A model generated the notes under the pieces. It was not told where the DNA came from and did not search any database. It was given only the letters and a program-made list of their open reading frames with translations. From a virus, in IMG/VR virus record IMGVR_UViG_3300020442_000098, positions 1 to 36,142 of that record: a DNA stretch of 36,142 nt. One strand, 5' to 3'. A program made the position numbers and the translations under genes. This document shows, in pieces, positions 14,326 through 18,362 of the stretch (its first letter is position 1; each line of letters begins with the position of its first letter).

Positions 14326-14520
14326 TCAATAATCATCCAGGTAACTTTGGCAGGTGTCAGGGTTTTTCTTACACCATGCTCGAACGTAGGAATCGGCATC
14401 TTGATCCATAGTGTAGTGGGCATGGTTATGTGCCAAACCCACGATGATAAAAAATCCAACTAGCAGACTATTCAGCAGAGTCACTGGATGCCCCAGGACT
14501 TTCAGGATCTTCGATGTCAT
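14326..14520 (-). CDS. Small membrane protein downstream of hsp20, 64 aa
   Basis: The N-terminal half contains one hydrophobic helix, HPVTLLNSLLVGFFIIVGLA at about 11-30. It is followed by a His-rich turn (HNHAHYTMDQD) and a C-terminal part with two Cys (WCKKNPDTC). Similar short proteins are, as I recall, common in T4-like cyanophages. The start overlaps the hsp20 3' end by 53 nt, and a terminator lies just after its stop. A single-pass envelope location is predicted; function unknown. Confidence 0.75.
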   Translation of the reverse strand: MTSKILKVLGHPVTLLNSLLVGFFIIVGLAHNHAHYTMDQDADSYVRAWCKKNPDTCQSYLDDY

Positions 14521-14953
14521 AGAGTTTGAGTTGCTGGTGCTCAGGGATGATCTTCTGTAAGTTTACCACGAGCATCCCGTTTTGGAAAGAGACTTTCTTG
14601 ACTTCCACATCATCTGACAAATTGAAACCTCTAGCGAACGTCCGAGTAGACACGCCACGGTGCATGTACTCCTCTTCTCCCTTGGACTTCGCTGTCTTAG
14701 ATCTGACTAGGAGGACGTTACTCTCGGTAGAGACTTCAATTTCGTCCTTCGACCAGCCAGCAAGTGCTAGTTCAATCCTCCATTTGATCTCGGTTTCCTT
14801 TACGAGATTATATGGTGGATATGATTCGTTTGCAGTTCCCATACCATAGGAATGCAATCTATAAAATACGTCGTCTAGTCCGACACTGTATCTTTCTGCA
14901 GCGTCTACGATGGCACCAAGATCTTTCGTGCCGAACTTTCTAAGTCCTGTCAT
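14468..14953 (-). CDS. hsp20: Small heat shock protein (Hsp20/alpha-crystallin)
   Basis: This 161-residue protein has an alpha-crystallin domain at about 45-140: KWRIELALAGWSKDEIEVST, the long VLLVRSKTAKSK loop, a GFNLSDDVEV segment, and the signature strand NGMLVVNLQK (the A-x-x-x-G-x-L-type motif). A C-terminal acidic Ser-rich tail follows. Such proteins are ATP-independent holdases, and hsp20 is a core gene of T4-like cyanophages. A strong AAGGAG lies before the ATG, within a structured leader. The gene diverges from the plus-strand secreted-protein cassette. Confidence 0.93.
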   Translation of the reverse strand: MTGLRKFGTKDLGAIVDAAERYSVGLDDVFYRLHSYGMGTANESYPPYNLVKETEIKWRIELALAGWSKDEIEVSTESNVLLVRSKTAKSKGEEEYMHRGVSTRTFARGFNLSDDVEVKKVSFQNGMLVVNLQKIIPEHQQLKLYDIEDPESPGASSDSAE

Positions 14954-14976
14954 TTGTATCTACTCCTTATAAAGCG

Positions 14977-15036
14977 AGTGTGAATTGTATGGTCCCCGAA
15001 GGCAACCATATTATGTAGTAAGATTTCAGTCACACT
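14977..15036 (-). promoter_or_regulatory. Structured hsp20 leader (nested inverted repeats)
   Basis: The 178-bp divergent gap between hsp20 and the plus-strand cassette holds, on the hsp20 side, a 7-bp inverted repeat (AGTGTGA/TCACACT at 14977-14983 and 15030-15036). It encloses an inner hairpin, GGTTGCC-TTCG-GGGACC (14991-15007), with one bulge. In RNA this would close a stem just upstream of the AAGGAG site. Whether it acts as a regulator or an operator is unknown. On the cassette side lies an 8-bp inverted repeat, CCGATAAA (15074-15081)/TTTATCGG (15114-15121). I could not identify a convincing promoter for either direction. Confidence 0.4.
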
Positions 15037-15131
15037 TAGGGTAGTAACGACCGCATATGTTCGGTACGGACATCCGATAAAGAATAGCTAAACATATATA
15101 GTATAGAACCATTTTTATCGGCTAGCAACCA

Positions 15132-15638
15132 ATGAAATATACAAGCATTGCTCTTGGCATGATAATGATGACGACTCCTGCAATGGCAGGTGGTCTAGTG
15201 ACTAAGCACGCATCCAGCGTACAATTGACTGTAGATGCTGCTAGGACTACCGCTACGAGAATGGGTAATACCTATTCTATTTCTGGTAGTGGTGTAGTAA
15301 CTGACGTTGGCGGTGGAAGTTCCGCTGACCTGAACGTAGGTGGACTCGGTACTATTTCTAACGGTGTTGCTGGAGGATCTATTCCTACTGCAACCCAAGC
15401 AACTTCAGGAAACGCTTTCAGCTACAGTAATTCTTTTACTGCTGGCGATTCTGTAATTACATCTGCTCCCAGCGTGGGTGCAGTTAGTGCTTTCTCTAAT
15501 CAGACATCTTATGCCTCTGGAACTGCTGGTACTCTGGCAGGTACTGTGACCACTGGCGGTGCTCTAACCGTAACCGCAGGGGGAGCAGGTACTAGTGCGA
15601 CAGGACAGTACGTTAGCGAGATCACTGTAATTGATTGA
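15132..15638 (+). CDS. Secreted low-complexity protein, 168 aa
   Basis: This is the first gene of the plus-strand cassette. The N-terminus MKYTSIALGMIMMTTPAMA is a Sec signal peptide with an AMA-G type cleavage site. The mature part is almost entirely Gly, Ser, Thr, Ala and Val with no Cys, in alternating patterns (SGSGVVTDVGGGSSADLNVG; TLAGTVTTGGALTVTAGGAG), suggesting a repetitive beta structure. There is no clear ribosome site before the ATG. I believe similar proteins occur in other cyanophages, without a known role. Export to the periplasm or assembly outside the cell is inference. Its stop is followed by GAGGA, which serves the next gene. Confidence 0.8.
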   Translation: MKYTSIALGMIMMTTPAMAGGLVTKHASSVQLTVDAARTTATRMGNTYSISGSGVVTDVGGGSSADLNVGGLGTISNGVAGGSIPTATQATSGNAFSYSNSFTAGDSVITSAPSVGAVSAFSNQTSYASGTAGTLAGTVTTGGALTVTAGGAGTSATGQYVSEITVID

Positions 15639-15649
15639 GGACCCTCGTG

Positions 15650-16096
15650 ATGACCCGTTTTGGAAAGACGATACTTTGGTCTGTCCTAAGTGTGGTGGGT
15701 GCAAGTGCCATACTTGCTCCTGCCCAGGCGGTCCCCGTGGTCCCGAACTTCACACAGGGCTCAATGACGAGCCACACAGAGACGACCCAAAAGATAACCG
15801 AGACCATCAACTCGATGGACTACAACACTGGTTATCAATACTCAGCAACTGGCTCAGGAATTACCGCCAGCGGTAACCTATCACCTGGGACTGGTACGAA
15901 CAATGTAACTATTGATGGAGTAACATCGACATGGACAGGAGTGACAAGCAAACCAACCTTCACTCAAACGACACCAGGCGCAGCGTTTCAGTTCACAGAA
16001 ACATATTCAGGACCTGGTTTGAGCAACCACACAATTATCAACAGAGTAACAGAGGTCACAAGCGTAACAGACACTACAAGTATCTTCTCCCAGTAG
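15650..16096 (+). CDS. Secreted Thr-rich protein, 148 aa
   Basis: The start is ATG 15650 (MTRFGKTILWSV), eight bases after GAGGA, and is preferred over a TTG at 15635. A signal peptide with a hydrophobic core (ILWSVLSVVGASAILA) and a PAQA-V cleavage site precedes a Thr/Ser/Gly-rich mature chain with many short strands (TGVTSKPTFTQTTPGAAFQF). The C-terminus (INRVTEVTSVTDTTSIFSQ) is encoded over the presumptive signal peptide of the next gene. Function unknown; it is probably co-expressed with the preceding secreted protein. Confidence 0.8.
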   Translation: MTRFGKTILWSVLSVVGASAILAPAQAVPVVPNFTQGSMTSHTETTQKITETINSMDYNTGYQYSATGSGITASGNLSPGTGTNNVTIDGVTSTWTGVTSKPTFTQTTPGAAFQFTETYSGPGLSNHTIINRVTEVTSVTDTTSIFSQ

Positions 16097-16803
16097 TTGC
16101 TGCTATTGTAGCATCACCTGTAAATGCAGAGACAGTTGGTGGTGTGTCTGCAACAGCATCTCCAATCGCGAATAGCTCAGGCTCAGTGACCAACCAAGCT
16201 ATCCAGGTTTTACAGGGTCCATATATCACTAATACTTATGGGGCAGGGATCCAGTGTCAAGGTCCTACTAGAAATTTTACCCCCTTTGTGACTGCTAGTG
16301 CGTCAGCTCAAAGACCATATGAACCTTGGTATAATACACCAGTCTATGATATGCGTGACTTGGATGAAGATGGGGCACCAGATAATCCAGGTGCCATATT
16401 ATGGGAACAACCTACTAGAACTGGACAGAAAGATAACCTCAATCTATCTGTAGGTTTCTCTATCACTTGGTCTGAACCACTGGATAAGAAACTACAAGAT
16501 CAATGTAAGGAAGCAGCGCAAGCTAACATATCATTGATGCAGCAAGCACATGCTAATAAGAGGCTCGATTTTGAGATCGCGAGACTCAAGAATTGTGGAC
16601 AACTTTTACAGCAAGGTATTATGTTCCACCCAAAAAGTCCTATGGCGAAAGTGTGTGCTGACGTGGTTGTTCATAACGTGAACCATATCAAACCACATGT
16701 TCACTCTATTCCTTCACCCTCAACTTCCGAATCGCAAGATTCCTCTGACGCTGCTCAACTCGGCGCTGAGATAACGACTGGGCGGGAAGTTGCTTCCCCC
16801 TAA
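15931..16803 (+). CDS. Secreted protein of the plus-strand cassette; start uncertain
   Basis: The reliable part begins around 16060 with a signal peptide, RNRHYKYLLPVVAAIVASPV followed by NA-E. A mature domain follows with GVSATASPIANSSGSVTNQA, NTYGAGIQCQGPTRNFTPFV, a long DLDEDGAPDNPG acidic turn, KDNLNLSVGFS, and a helical stretch with NKRLDFEIARLKNCGQLL. I recall similar mature sequences in other cyanophages. The only canonical in-frame start before the signal peptide is ATG 15931, which would add over 40 polar residues and overlap the previous gene by 166 nt. An AAG at 16060, four bases after AGAGG, stands where an ATG would be expected. The 3' end overlaps a convergent gene by 98 nt. Confidence 0.7.
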   Translation: MDRSDKQTNLHSNDTRRSVSVHRNIFRTWFEQPHNYQQSNRGHKRNRHYKYLLPVVAAIVASPVNAETVGGVSATASPIANSSGSVTNQAIQVLQGPYITNTYGAGIQCQGPTRNFTPFVTASASAQRPYEPWYNTPVYDMRDLDEDGAPDNPGAILWEQPTRTGQKDNLNLSVGFSITWSEPLDKKLQDQCKEAAQANISLMQQAHANKRLDFEIARLKNCGQLLQQGIMFHPKSPMAKVCADVVVHNVNHIKPHVHSIPSPSTSESQDSSDAAQLGAEITTGREVASP

Positions 16804-17494
16804 TAGCAGCAATCTTCTTGATAACTTTCTTGACCGTTGGTTTGACTACTTTCAATAGTATGTCTGCCAGCGGTTTTGCTAATAGTGCTGATGTAGTTGC
16901 AACCACAGCAATGCCAGCAGTAGTTGTGATTGCTCCTGCTGTTGGGATTGCTTGAATAATTTGATCGGGTATCCCTATCTCTTCTGTGACTGGTATACAT
17001 TCCTTACCAACCAGTCTATACTCAATAATTTTTTTAGTACCGTTTTCTACTAGTGTACCTACAGGTTCTTTTAGTTTCTGTGCTTCTGTAGGACATTCAA
17101 CCTTAGCGGTTGCTGCAGTATTTGGGATGCTTGGTGCTTTGACCTCTGGTGCTTCTGGTGCCTTTACAGGTGGGACTTCTGCCTCACCTGTGTATATCAT
17201 CTGTTCAGGTTCAAAGCGAAGAGGATTGAAACTAGGAAGGCCAGCATCGCAAATTGTACTAGTTCCCTTGGGATCGTCCTCTTTGATTGCTTCATTTCTT
17301 CTATTATTAGTAGTGTGTACCTCTACACAGCCAGGGATATCAACGATAGGTGACCCCAATTCTACAGTGACAGGAGGTGCCGCTGGAATTGAGGGTGGTG
17401 TACGCTCAGTGAAAGTAGAAACGTTTACGTCTATGAGATCCAACCTAATTTCAGGGATGGGTCTAGAGTTGATTCTAATCTCTTTGATTTCCAT
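16706..17494 (-). CDS. Membrane-associated Pro-rich protein, 262 aa
   Basis: The start ATG 17494 overlaps the previous stop as TAATG, so the TTG two codons upstream is not needed. The first 60 residues are strand-like (MEIKEIRINSRPIPEIRLDL), followed by a Pro/Ala/Lys-rich linker around 105-130 (VPPVKAPEAPEVKAPSIP). A small Cys-containing domain comes next, then a hydrophobic segment, TTTAGIAVVATTSALLAKPL near 198-217, and a very basic C-terminus (KPTVKKVIKKIAAIRGK...). This predicts membrane anchoring with a cytoplasmic basic tail. It converges on the secreted cassette with a 98-nt overlap. No known family. Confidence 0.75.
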   Translation of the reverse strand: MEIKEIRINSRPIPEIRLDLIDVNVSTFTERTPPSIPAAPPVTVELGSPIVDIPGCVEVHTTNNRRNEAIKEDDPKGTSTICDAGLPSFNPLRFEPEQMIYTGEAEVPPVKAPEAPEVKAPSIPNTAATAKVECPTEAQKLKEPVGTLVENGTKKIIEYRLVGKECIPVTEEIGIPDQIIQAIPTAGAITTTAGIAVVATTSALLAKPLADILLKVVKPTVKKVIKKIAAIRGKQLPAQSLSQRRVEQRQRNLAIRKLRVKE

Positions 17495-18069
17495 TAGCAA
17501 TCATTGAATACTTCACCGACTTGTGATCCGATCTCAGACCCTGCCTTCTGTCCTAGAAGCAGTGCCCAACCACCTGCCAACCATCCAACATAAGGTACGC
17601 TAGCAACTGCTGGGACAACAGCACCAGCAGCGATAGCACTACCTGCCATTGCACCTTGTGACCGTGCTCCAGCGTCCGCCACTAAACACTCCACGTCTTT
17701 TGCACTCAACTTTCCCTCGGTGGTGTCTGCCGCGCCTCCCATGTTACGATAACCGTCCATGGTATATTGATCACGACGATACTCTGTTCTCTTCTCGTCT
17801 GTACCGCCAAAGAGTCCTTTCTTTTCACGGTCAAGATTCAAAGACTTTTCAGACTCCATCACTCTAGGATCATTGGCACGATACTCAATCTCATATCCTT
17901 CCTTTGTTGCCTTCAACCTATAGGAAGAGTATGGACCGTTTGGAATTTGAATAGTAGGAGGTTCCTGTACCTGAGGTGTAGGTCTAAGAACATATCCTAG
18001 CAAACCAATATGGGAGACTCCTACGAGTCCCCCAAGACCTATTGCAATCCACTTTAGTTTAGAAGTCAT
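17494..18069 (-). CDS. Membrane protein with N-terminal anchor, 191 aa
   Basis: The protein opens with a membrane anchor, LKWIAIGLGGLVGVSHIGLL at about 5-24, too long and lacking a clear cleavage site for a simple signal peptide. The middle is charged and strand-like (YRLKATKEGYEIEYRANDP, then an Arg/Asp-rich region). The C-terminal third is Gly/Ala-rich (AMAGSAIAAGAVVPAVASVP, WLAGGWALLLGQKAGSEIG), resembling a glycine-zipper membrane segment. The stop forms TAATG with the next gene. Glycine-zipper architecture suggests membrane insertion; the role is unknown. Confidence 0.78.
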   Translation of the reverse strand: MTSKLKWIAIGLGGLVGVSHIGLLGYVLRPTPQVQEPPTIQIPNGPYSSYRLKATKEGYEIEYRANDPRVMESEKSLNLDREKKGLFGGTDEKRTEYRRDQYTMDGYRNMGGAADTTEGKLSAKDVECLVADAGARSQGAMAGSAIAAGAVVPAVASVPYVGWLAGGWALLLGQKAGSEIGSQVGEVFNDC

Positions 18070-18071
18070 GA

Positions 18072-18362
18072 TTATACCCTAGGTTCTGTTTCTTCCTTTC
18101 TCTTGATCTCAGGTGCCTTTTTAGGTGCAGATCCATTCTTTGCTGGACTCAATCCGAACGCAGCTAAGGATCCACTAAAGACCGAGGCGATAAATGTAGG
18201 ATCGAAATCTAAAATCTTTTGACCGTTTGGAAGTCTAACGTAACTGAATGTAAGAAGAGAAGCACTCCAGATGAGTACCACTACCTTTACTAGATTACCA
18301 AGAACTTCACTCTTGTCTTCATCGTTATCTTTCTCTTCAGGTGTTGGGGGTGTTGTTGTCAT
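18072..18362 (-). CDS. Small membrane protein, 96 aa
   Basis: The start is taken at MTTTPPTPEEKD (18362), which overlaps the regA 3' end by 26 nt; the longer frame would overlap it further. A charged N-terminus (EEKDNDEDKSE) precedes one hydrophobic helix, LVKVVVLIWSASLLTFSYV at about 23-41. A weaker hydrophobic stretch follows (FIASVFSGSLAAFGL), then a basic Pro/Lys tail. The likely topology is one or two spans. Function unknown. Confidence 0.7.
   Translation of the reverse strand: MTTTPPTPEEKDNDEDKSEVLGNLVKVVVLIWSASLLTFSYVRLPNGQKILDFDPTFIASVFSGSLAAFGLSPAKNGSAPKKAPEIKRKEETEPRV

Follow-up and report, generated by a model that had tools for sequence, protein, structure and literature searches.

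What is the function of a six-gene island, three genes of which encode apparently secreted and three of which encode membrane proteins, in the genome of a T4-like cyanomyovirus? The window, i.e., the whole stretch of 36,142 nucleotides that was analysed, is a 36-kb fragment of such a phage with S-IOM18 and S-RIM2 as nearest relatives over this stretch (~73% DNA identity), and the island sits between hsp20 and regA, both on the minus strand. The original prediction, made from the letters alone, had proposed three plus-strand genes at 15132-16803 as the only genes on that strand. These genes are real, as ORF1, ORF2 and ORF3 each strongly match a PHROG family of their own (phrog_564, 650 and 848), and relatives of the three were found in 368, 412 and 436 phage records, respectively; none of six other long plus-strand ORFs tested had a PHROG match. 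The three facing minus-strand membrane proteins at 16706-18362 were also recovered, as ORF4, ORF5 and a DUF6450 protein that are convergent with the plus-strand genes. The PHROG families of all six island genes (564, 650, 848, 570, 605 and 721) are annotated as unknown function. At the left end of the window, the seemingly empty positions 1-1900 match a minus-strand gene of S-RIM14.

ORF1 (15132-15638, +; Syn9 gp167, phrog_564, T4-GC237) has a signal-peptide-like N-terminus and a Gly/Ser/Thr-rich mature chain. ORF2 (15650-16096, +, with a possible alternative TTG start at 15635; Syn9 gp166, DUF6322/phrog_650, T4-GC236) also has a signal-peptide-like N-terminus, followed by a Thr/Ser-rich mature chain that is all-beta in the structure model. 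The two proteins are mutually related, the profile of each family matching the other. ORF3 (15931-16803, +; Syn9 gp165, phrog_848, T4-GC235) starts with a long N-terminal extension, which precedes a signal peptide and a predicted mature chain from 16129. On the minus strand, ORF4 (16706-17500; Syn9 gp164, phrog_570, T4-GC234), the 3' end of which overlaps ORF3, encodes a Pro-rich region, one transmembrane segment near the C-terminus (about residues 190-208) and a Lys-rich tail. ORF5 (17494-18069; Syn9 gp163, phrog_605, T4-GC219) has an N-terminal transmembrane segment and a C-terminal Gly/Ala-rich hydrophobic segment, and the previously noted glycine-zipper-like segment could be located here, at about residues 140-158. 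The DUF6450 protein (18072-18362; Syn9 gp161, phrog_721, T4-GC218), encoded by the first gene of the minus-strand arm, is a small membrane protein with charged ends. Another small membrane protein, gp162, is present in Syn9 and most relatives and missing from the window arm (17494-18362); its label 'plasmid stability' is without support from any Pfam match above cut-off.

The myovirus version of this gene cluster has been recorded before. According to the accessible parts of Sullivan et al. 2010 (PMC3037559), T4-GC 218, 219, 234, 235 and 237 form a 'mobile hypothetical genes cluster' that is present in 15 of 16 cyanomyoviruses, all but S-PM2, and these are the same genes at the same locus. The notion of an undescribed system has to be narrowed accordingly: the cluster was listed in 2010, as hypothetical genes and with no function given in these parts of the paper, which also do not describe export signals, the gene overlap, promoters, podovirus and siphovirus versions or exclusivity with endolysins. 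New in the present analysis are the occurrence of a four-gene core as one block in T7-like podoviruses and MED4-184-like siphoviruses, the start of ORF3 within ORF2, the late-promoter motifs of both myovirus arms and the near-exclusivity with endolysin. Our literature searches, directed at lysis genes of marine cyanophages and at DUF6322 or DUF6450, gave nothing relevant, and we found no publication that explains host opening by the common T4-like and T7-like phages that infect Prochlorococcus and marine Synechococcus.

Gene order was determined by profile search in 240 IMG/VR loci (80 each from the myovirus, siphovirus-query and podovirus-query sets) and in named phages. In myoviruses, ORF1, ORF2 and ORF3 run in this order towards ORF4, then ORF5 and gp162, then DUF6450 on the opposite strand. 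The siphovirus-query loci, a mixed set including a few loci with podovirus terminase genes and a P-RSP2-like arrangement, have DUF6450, ORF1, ORF2 and ORF3 facing ORF4 and gp162. In podoviruses, ORF4, DUF6450, ORF2 and ORF3 all point towards the small terminase gene, with the large terminase gene further on. ORF2, ORF3, ORF4 and DUF6450 are common to all three layouts and thus represent the core of the module. ORF1 is found in myoviruses and siphoviruses and is missing from most podoviruses, and ORF5 is an accessory member of myoviruses only. Co-conservation of the genes had been suggested as a check; they are linked in all three locus sets (80 + 80 + 80), and scattered, unlinked occurrence was not encountered. 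A conserved protein of ~53 aa (phrog_2738/402) is additionally encoded beside the module in podoviruses and siphoviruses (L007:4273-4434, L005:1426-1584 and equivalents).

Searches with tblastn placed ORF3 relatives in T7-like podoviruses and in MED4-184/P-HS2 siphoviruses. The podovirus block lies between the tail fibre and small terminase genes (KBS-P-1A, P-SSP7, S-TIP37), and the block of MED4-184, which its tape-measure and minor-tail genes identify as a true siphovirus, is a few genes away from a tail-fibre protein. All phages with module matches carry names that refer to Synechococcus, Prochlorococcus, cyanophage, marine or uncultured sources; the freshwater lake phages DSL-LC02 and DSL-LC03 are among them. 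In the ORF3 tree, siphovirus sequences form one clade and podovirus sequences fall on one side of a branch; branches are long and the deeper order is unsure, but the pattern suggests that the exchange between tail types is old. We rejected a host origin of the module, as nine matches in genome collections are cyanophage fragments in MAGs or SAGs with full phage gene order. Cyanophage contigs (L254-L257, L260, L262) were binned in MAGs labelled Euryarchaeota, Lewinella, Formosa, Bacteroidetes, Crocinitomicaceae and Neomarinimicrobiota.

Export signals were assessed by a simple hydropathy/AXA criterion, not SignalP, under which 5 of 43 other window genes were positive. Signal-peptide-like N-termini were present in 73/83 and 72/74 ORF1 sequences by group and in 85/87, 76/79 and 78/83 ORF2 sequences of the three phage groups. 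The claim that all three proteins begin with a Sec signal peptide thus holds for ORF1 and ORF2, whereas that of ORF3 lies about 50-66 residues in: an internal signal-peptide-like segment, at about residue 57-67, was found in 80/80, 65/65 and 68/70 sequences. For ORF1, ORF2 and full-length ORF3, at most one sequence in each group contained a lipobox. Four cysteines are invariant in ORF3, as expected for an oxidising compartment. Independent agreement with these results comes from GenBank annotations of the P-SSP7 orthologues, which list one transmembrane segment for gp42 (ORF4), '2 transmembrane regions predicted by TMHMM' for gp43 (DUF6450) and a possible SignalP signal for gp44 (ORF2). Cyanobacterial Sec signals lead to the thylakoid lumen as well as to the periplasm, and we infer that the exported proteins reside in the periplasm rather than in the lumen. 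The export signals, the membrane proteins and their linkage support the original prediction of an envelope-directed multi-gene system.

Late expression and, in podoviruses, the neighbouring tail-fibre and terminase genes would also suit minor virion or assembly components with misleading signal peptides. This is very improbable in view of the consistent signal-peptide and AXA features in all three groups, the four invariant cysteines of ORF3 and the sharing of the module among three different virion architectures. In addition, Table 2 of Sullivan et al. 2010 (PMC3037559) has 12 genes present in 15/16 genomes, at most one of which is a virion protein; if the five cluster families belong to this class, at least four of them were undetected in virions. 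The 'hypothetical' labels in the S-SM1 GenBank record are no proof of absence from virions, as T4-GC969, which was detected in virions, has the same label.

The signal peptide of ORF3 is located at the ORF2 stop and has no start codon just upstream. The ORF3 frame extends back into ORF2, in its -1 frame, at 219 of 221 loci, and its ATG has a fixed distance from the ORF2 stop in each phage group (-165 in 83/84 myoviruses, -138 in 77/78 siphoviruses, -192 in 75/83 podoviruses). ORF3 thus starts within ORF2 in all three phage groups and 138-192 nt are read in two frames, with a ribosome-site-like motif at the internal ATG in most loci. In the window, the dual-coded overlap spans 15931..16096 (+), with GGAG upstream of the ATG and a 55-codon N-terminal extension. 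When ORF2 codons were redrawn synonymously from the usage of the same region and sequences were clustered at 85% identity, the ORF3 frame was open across the overlap in 44/44, 12/12 and 38/42 clustered sequences as compared to 7.4, 2.1 and 2.1 expected. Pooled over divergent sequences, 94/98 were open versus about 12 expected, and the third frame was never open. These patterns indicate that the open frame is under selection and, together with the fixed internal ATG, suggest that ORF3 is most likely synthesised as a preprotein that carries an N-terminal extension of 46-64 residues. The His/Asn/Arg-rich composition of the extension resembles what shifted Thr codons give, and we thus assign no function to it. 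A frameshift fusion of ORF2 and ORF3 is less likely, as the ATG and the ribosome-site-like motif are at a fixed place in each group and stops are often found directly upstream. The conserved dual-coded overlap in three phage types is an addition of this analysis.

Late promoters of T4-like cyanophages (gp55-type) are characterized by the NATAAATA motif (PMC2984593). A TAAATA core is located no more than 75 nt upstream of ORF1 in 26/28 myoviruses (shuffle mean 1.7); it lies 9-49 nt before the gene in relatives, in the divergent intergenic region between hsp20 (-) and ORF1 (+) that corresponds to 14954..15131 of the window. For DUF6450, the same core is found at most 80 nt before the start in 55 of 64 myovirus relatives (shuffles 6.5), but before ORF4, ORF5 and gp162, the genes further downstream on the same strand, it occurs in 1-3 of 55-75 sequences. 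Both myovirus arms therefore look like convergent late operons, with the gp55-type promoter feature of T4-like late genes found in relatives at ORF1 and DUF6450. The window itself has no perfect late-promoter motif before either gene; its copies are degenerate. The divergently oriented hsp20 (14468-14953, -) also has a late-promoter motif in 19/24 relatives and may be part of the same late programme.

Exported proteins could alternatively coat or alter the host surface against superinfection or re-adsorption of progeny, i.e., late envelope remodelling without lysis by lom/bor-like or exclusion functions. Such a role would be in accordance with proteins that are exported or membrane-bound, with the restriction of the module to picocyanobacterial phages, and with its presence in three tail types, which ties it to the host envelope and not to the virion. 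However, we consider it rather unlikely, because the genes have late-promoter motifs instead of early expression and because remodelling gives no reason for the relationship of the module with endolysin genes.

This relationship is seen in S-PM2, in which RegA is directly followed by Hsp20 and no match to any module profile was found genome-wide, while the Hsp20 and RegA controls matched. Instead, a single cluster at 115534-118229 of S-PM2 encodes a C39 peptidase and, after it, a GH24 lysozyme, together with an RlpA-like and a small lipoprotein-like protein. Relatives of the C39 protein occur in 106 cyanophage records. We compared 24 chosen records, which are mutually related and were picked partly for having one gene or the other. 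ORF2 was absent from 10 of 11 phages with the C39/lysozyme endolysin (S-PM2, S-CBP1, S-SRM01, S-CREM1, S-SZBM1, ACG-2014f, S-CAM7, S-N03, PSS2, S-CBS2), and 13 of 14 module-bearing phages had no stand-alone lysozyme, the same 13 also being devoid of RlpA and C39. Assuming that the module is carried by 50-70% of cyanophages, the chance of finding it in one or fewer of 11 endolysin phages is 0.006 to 0.00005, a guide only as the records are related. Two lysozyme matches in module phages lie within ORFs of 925-935 aa and presumably represent the gp5 tail lysozyme; lysozyme or amidase domains are known from baseplate proteins. No peptidoglycan hydrolase was found among 28 proteins of MED4-184 scanned with Pfam. 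In the podovirus S-CBP1, the lysozyme gene is located between tail fibre and small terminase, the slot of the module in KBS-P-1A, P-SSP7 and S-TIP37. The C39/GH24 cassette (S-PM2, S-CBP1, ACG-2014f) is thus found in the same genomic slot in S-CBP1; it occurs in a minority of picocyanobacterial phages and differs from the module in that it encodes recognisable peptidoglycan-cleaving enzymes, with no sequence relation between the two. Neither the near-absence of the module alongside endolysin nor the S-CBP1 endolysin in the same slot is explained by surface remodelling.

The sole exception is the freshwater cyanomyovirus DSL-LC02 (OR032571, about 81938-89634), which has module and endolysin within 8 kb, next to psbA/psbD; the two are thus not strictly exclusive. 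Adjacency to psbA/psbD, together with the dual destination of cyanobacterial Sec export, could point to a thylakoid-directed module, in which ORF1-3 would be delivered by Sec to the lumen and photosynthetic membranes would be the target of the membrane proteins. We regard this as improbable, since the module is also present in MED4-184, whose annotated gene list has no photosynthesis gene, is positioned by the terminase in podoviruses and is nearly exclusive with endolysin.

Being late, linked, envelope-directed, common to several tail types, restricted to picocyanophages and replaced by endolysin cassettes, the module is best explained by host lysis; it probably lyses the picocyanobacterial host in place of a standard endolysin cassette. 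Among the roles offered initially, exclusion, adhesion or lysis timing, lysis fits best, while late promoters and endolysin replacement argue against early exclusion and we found nothing in support of adhesion.

T7 keeps its gene 17.5 holin and 18.5/18.7 spanins between tail fibre and terminase genes. The podovirus module has the same position and likewise combines a small membrane protein (P-SSP7 gp43, two transmembrane segments by TMHMM) with an overlapping exported pair, but PHROG, Pfam and PDB sequence matches between these T7 proteins and the module were absent. More generally, PHROG, Pfam and sequence searches gave no holin, spanin or hydrolase homology for any module protein, and no Pfam hydrolase domain, the hallmark of a phage endolysin as peptidoglycan hydrolase, was detected in the six window proteins. 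Two-component spanins of the Rz/Rz1 type are encoded by overlapping or nested genes in different frames, a feature shared by ORF2/ORF3. However, their outer-membrane component is a lipoprotein with a lipobox, which ORF1, ORF2 and ORF3 lack, and canonical spanins were therefore ruled out. The partner in Rz/Rz1 is an inner-membrane-anchored periplasmic coiled coil; in the module, ORF2 has a signal-peptide-like N-terminus with an AXA site and an all-beta model, and ORF4 is membrane-anchored. The T7 spanins are an anchored i-spanin and a lipoprotein o-spanin, in contrast to ORF2 and ORF3 as exported proteins of signal-peptidase-I type. Class II holins have about 65-95 aa, two transmembrane segments and a charged hydrophilic C-terminus (PMC9096620). 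DUF6450 proteins (71-104 aa, charged ends) resemble them in size and membrane nature, a likeness and not membership; our hydropathy scan mostly gave one strong segment versus the two predicted by TMHMM for P-SSP7 gp43.

The model of mature ORF2 has modest confidence (mean pLDDT 75, pTM 0.34) and consists of a small beta domain and two strands that are each 24-25 residues long. Its hairpin gave weak Foldseek and VIA-align matches to beta-stems of pore-forming proteins and to phage collar proteins (Z at most 4.0), from which we draw no function. A plain membrane barrel was rejected for ORF2, as alternate strand faces are insufficiently hydrophobic. The ORF3 model is poor (pLDDT 60), with a beta region followed by a long helix that weakly matched unrelated helices only, and sequence searches for relatives with solved structures returned nothing significant for either ORF2 or ORF3.

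It is tempting to propose how such a module could operate. As the form that this cyanophage envelope module takes in cyanomyoviruses, the six genes would act late and carry out or complete lysis. Briefly, DUF6450 might function at the inner membrane as a small two-TM holin does, and ORF4, joined in myoviruses by ORF5 and gp162, might extend from this membrane into the periplasm. There, beta-stalks of ORF1/ORF2 and the disulphide-bearing ORF3 would form an assembly that abuts the wall or outer membrane and breaks through it. As no component has a recognisable hydrolase domain, the wall would be breached without a dedicated endolysin or by an enzyme that escaped recognition. We tentatively suggest, as a possibility that we hold with some doubt, that picocyanobacterial phages with three kinds of tail achieve host lysis through a non-homologous, multi-protein trans-envelope system without a dedicated endolysin, which comprises a small inner-membrane protein, a proline-rich anchor, periplasmic Thr-rich ORF1/ORF2 beta-stalks and a disulphide-bonded ORF3 with its start within ORF2, and which was exchanged against endolysin cassettes in evolution. 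The cyanophage-restricted unknown families DUF6322, DUF6450 and phrog_564, 570, 650, 721 and 848 would thereby be explained as parts of one system. When phages lyse Prochlorococcus and marine Synechococcus, they fuel a large part of the carbon cycling in the ocean, and a module that rarely coexists with endolysin provides named candidate lysis genes and a testable hypothesis.

Two endolysin-bearing phages harbour module-like sequences. S-CAM7 (KU686213, 32478-32720) has a broken ORF3-like remnant with two in-frame stops, and S-N03 (NC_070959, 143438-143596) encodes a DUF6450-like gene; both are possible traces of module loss.
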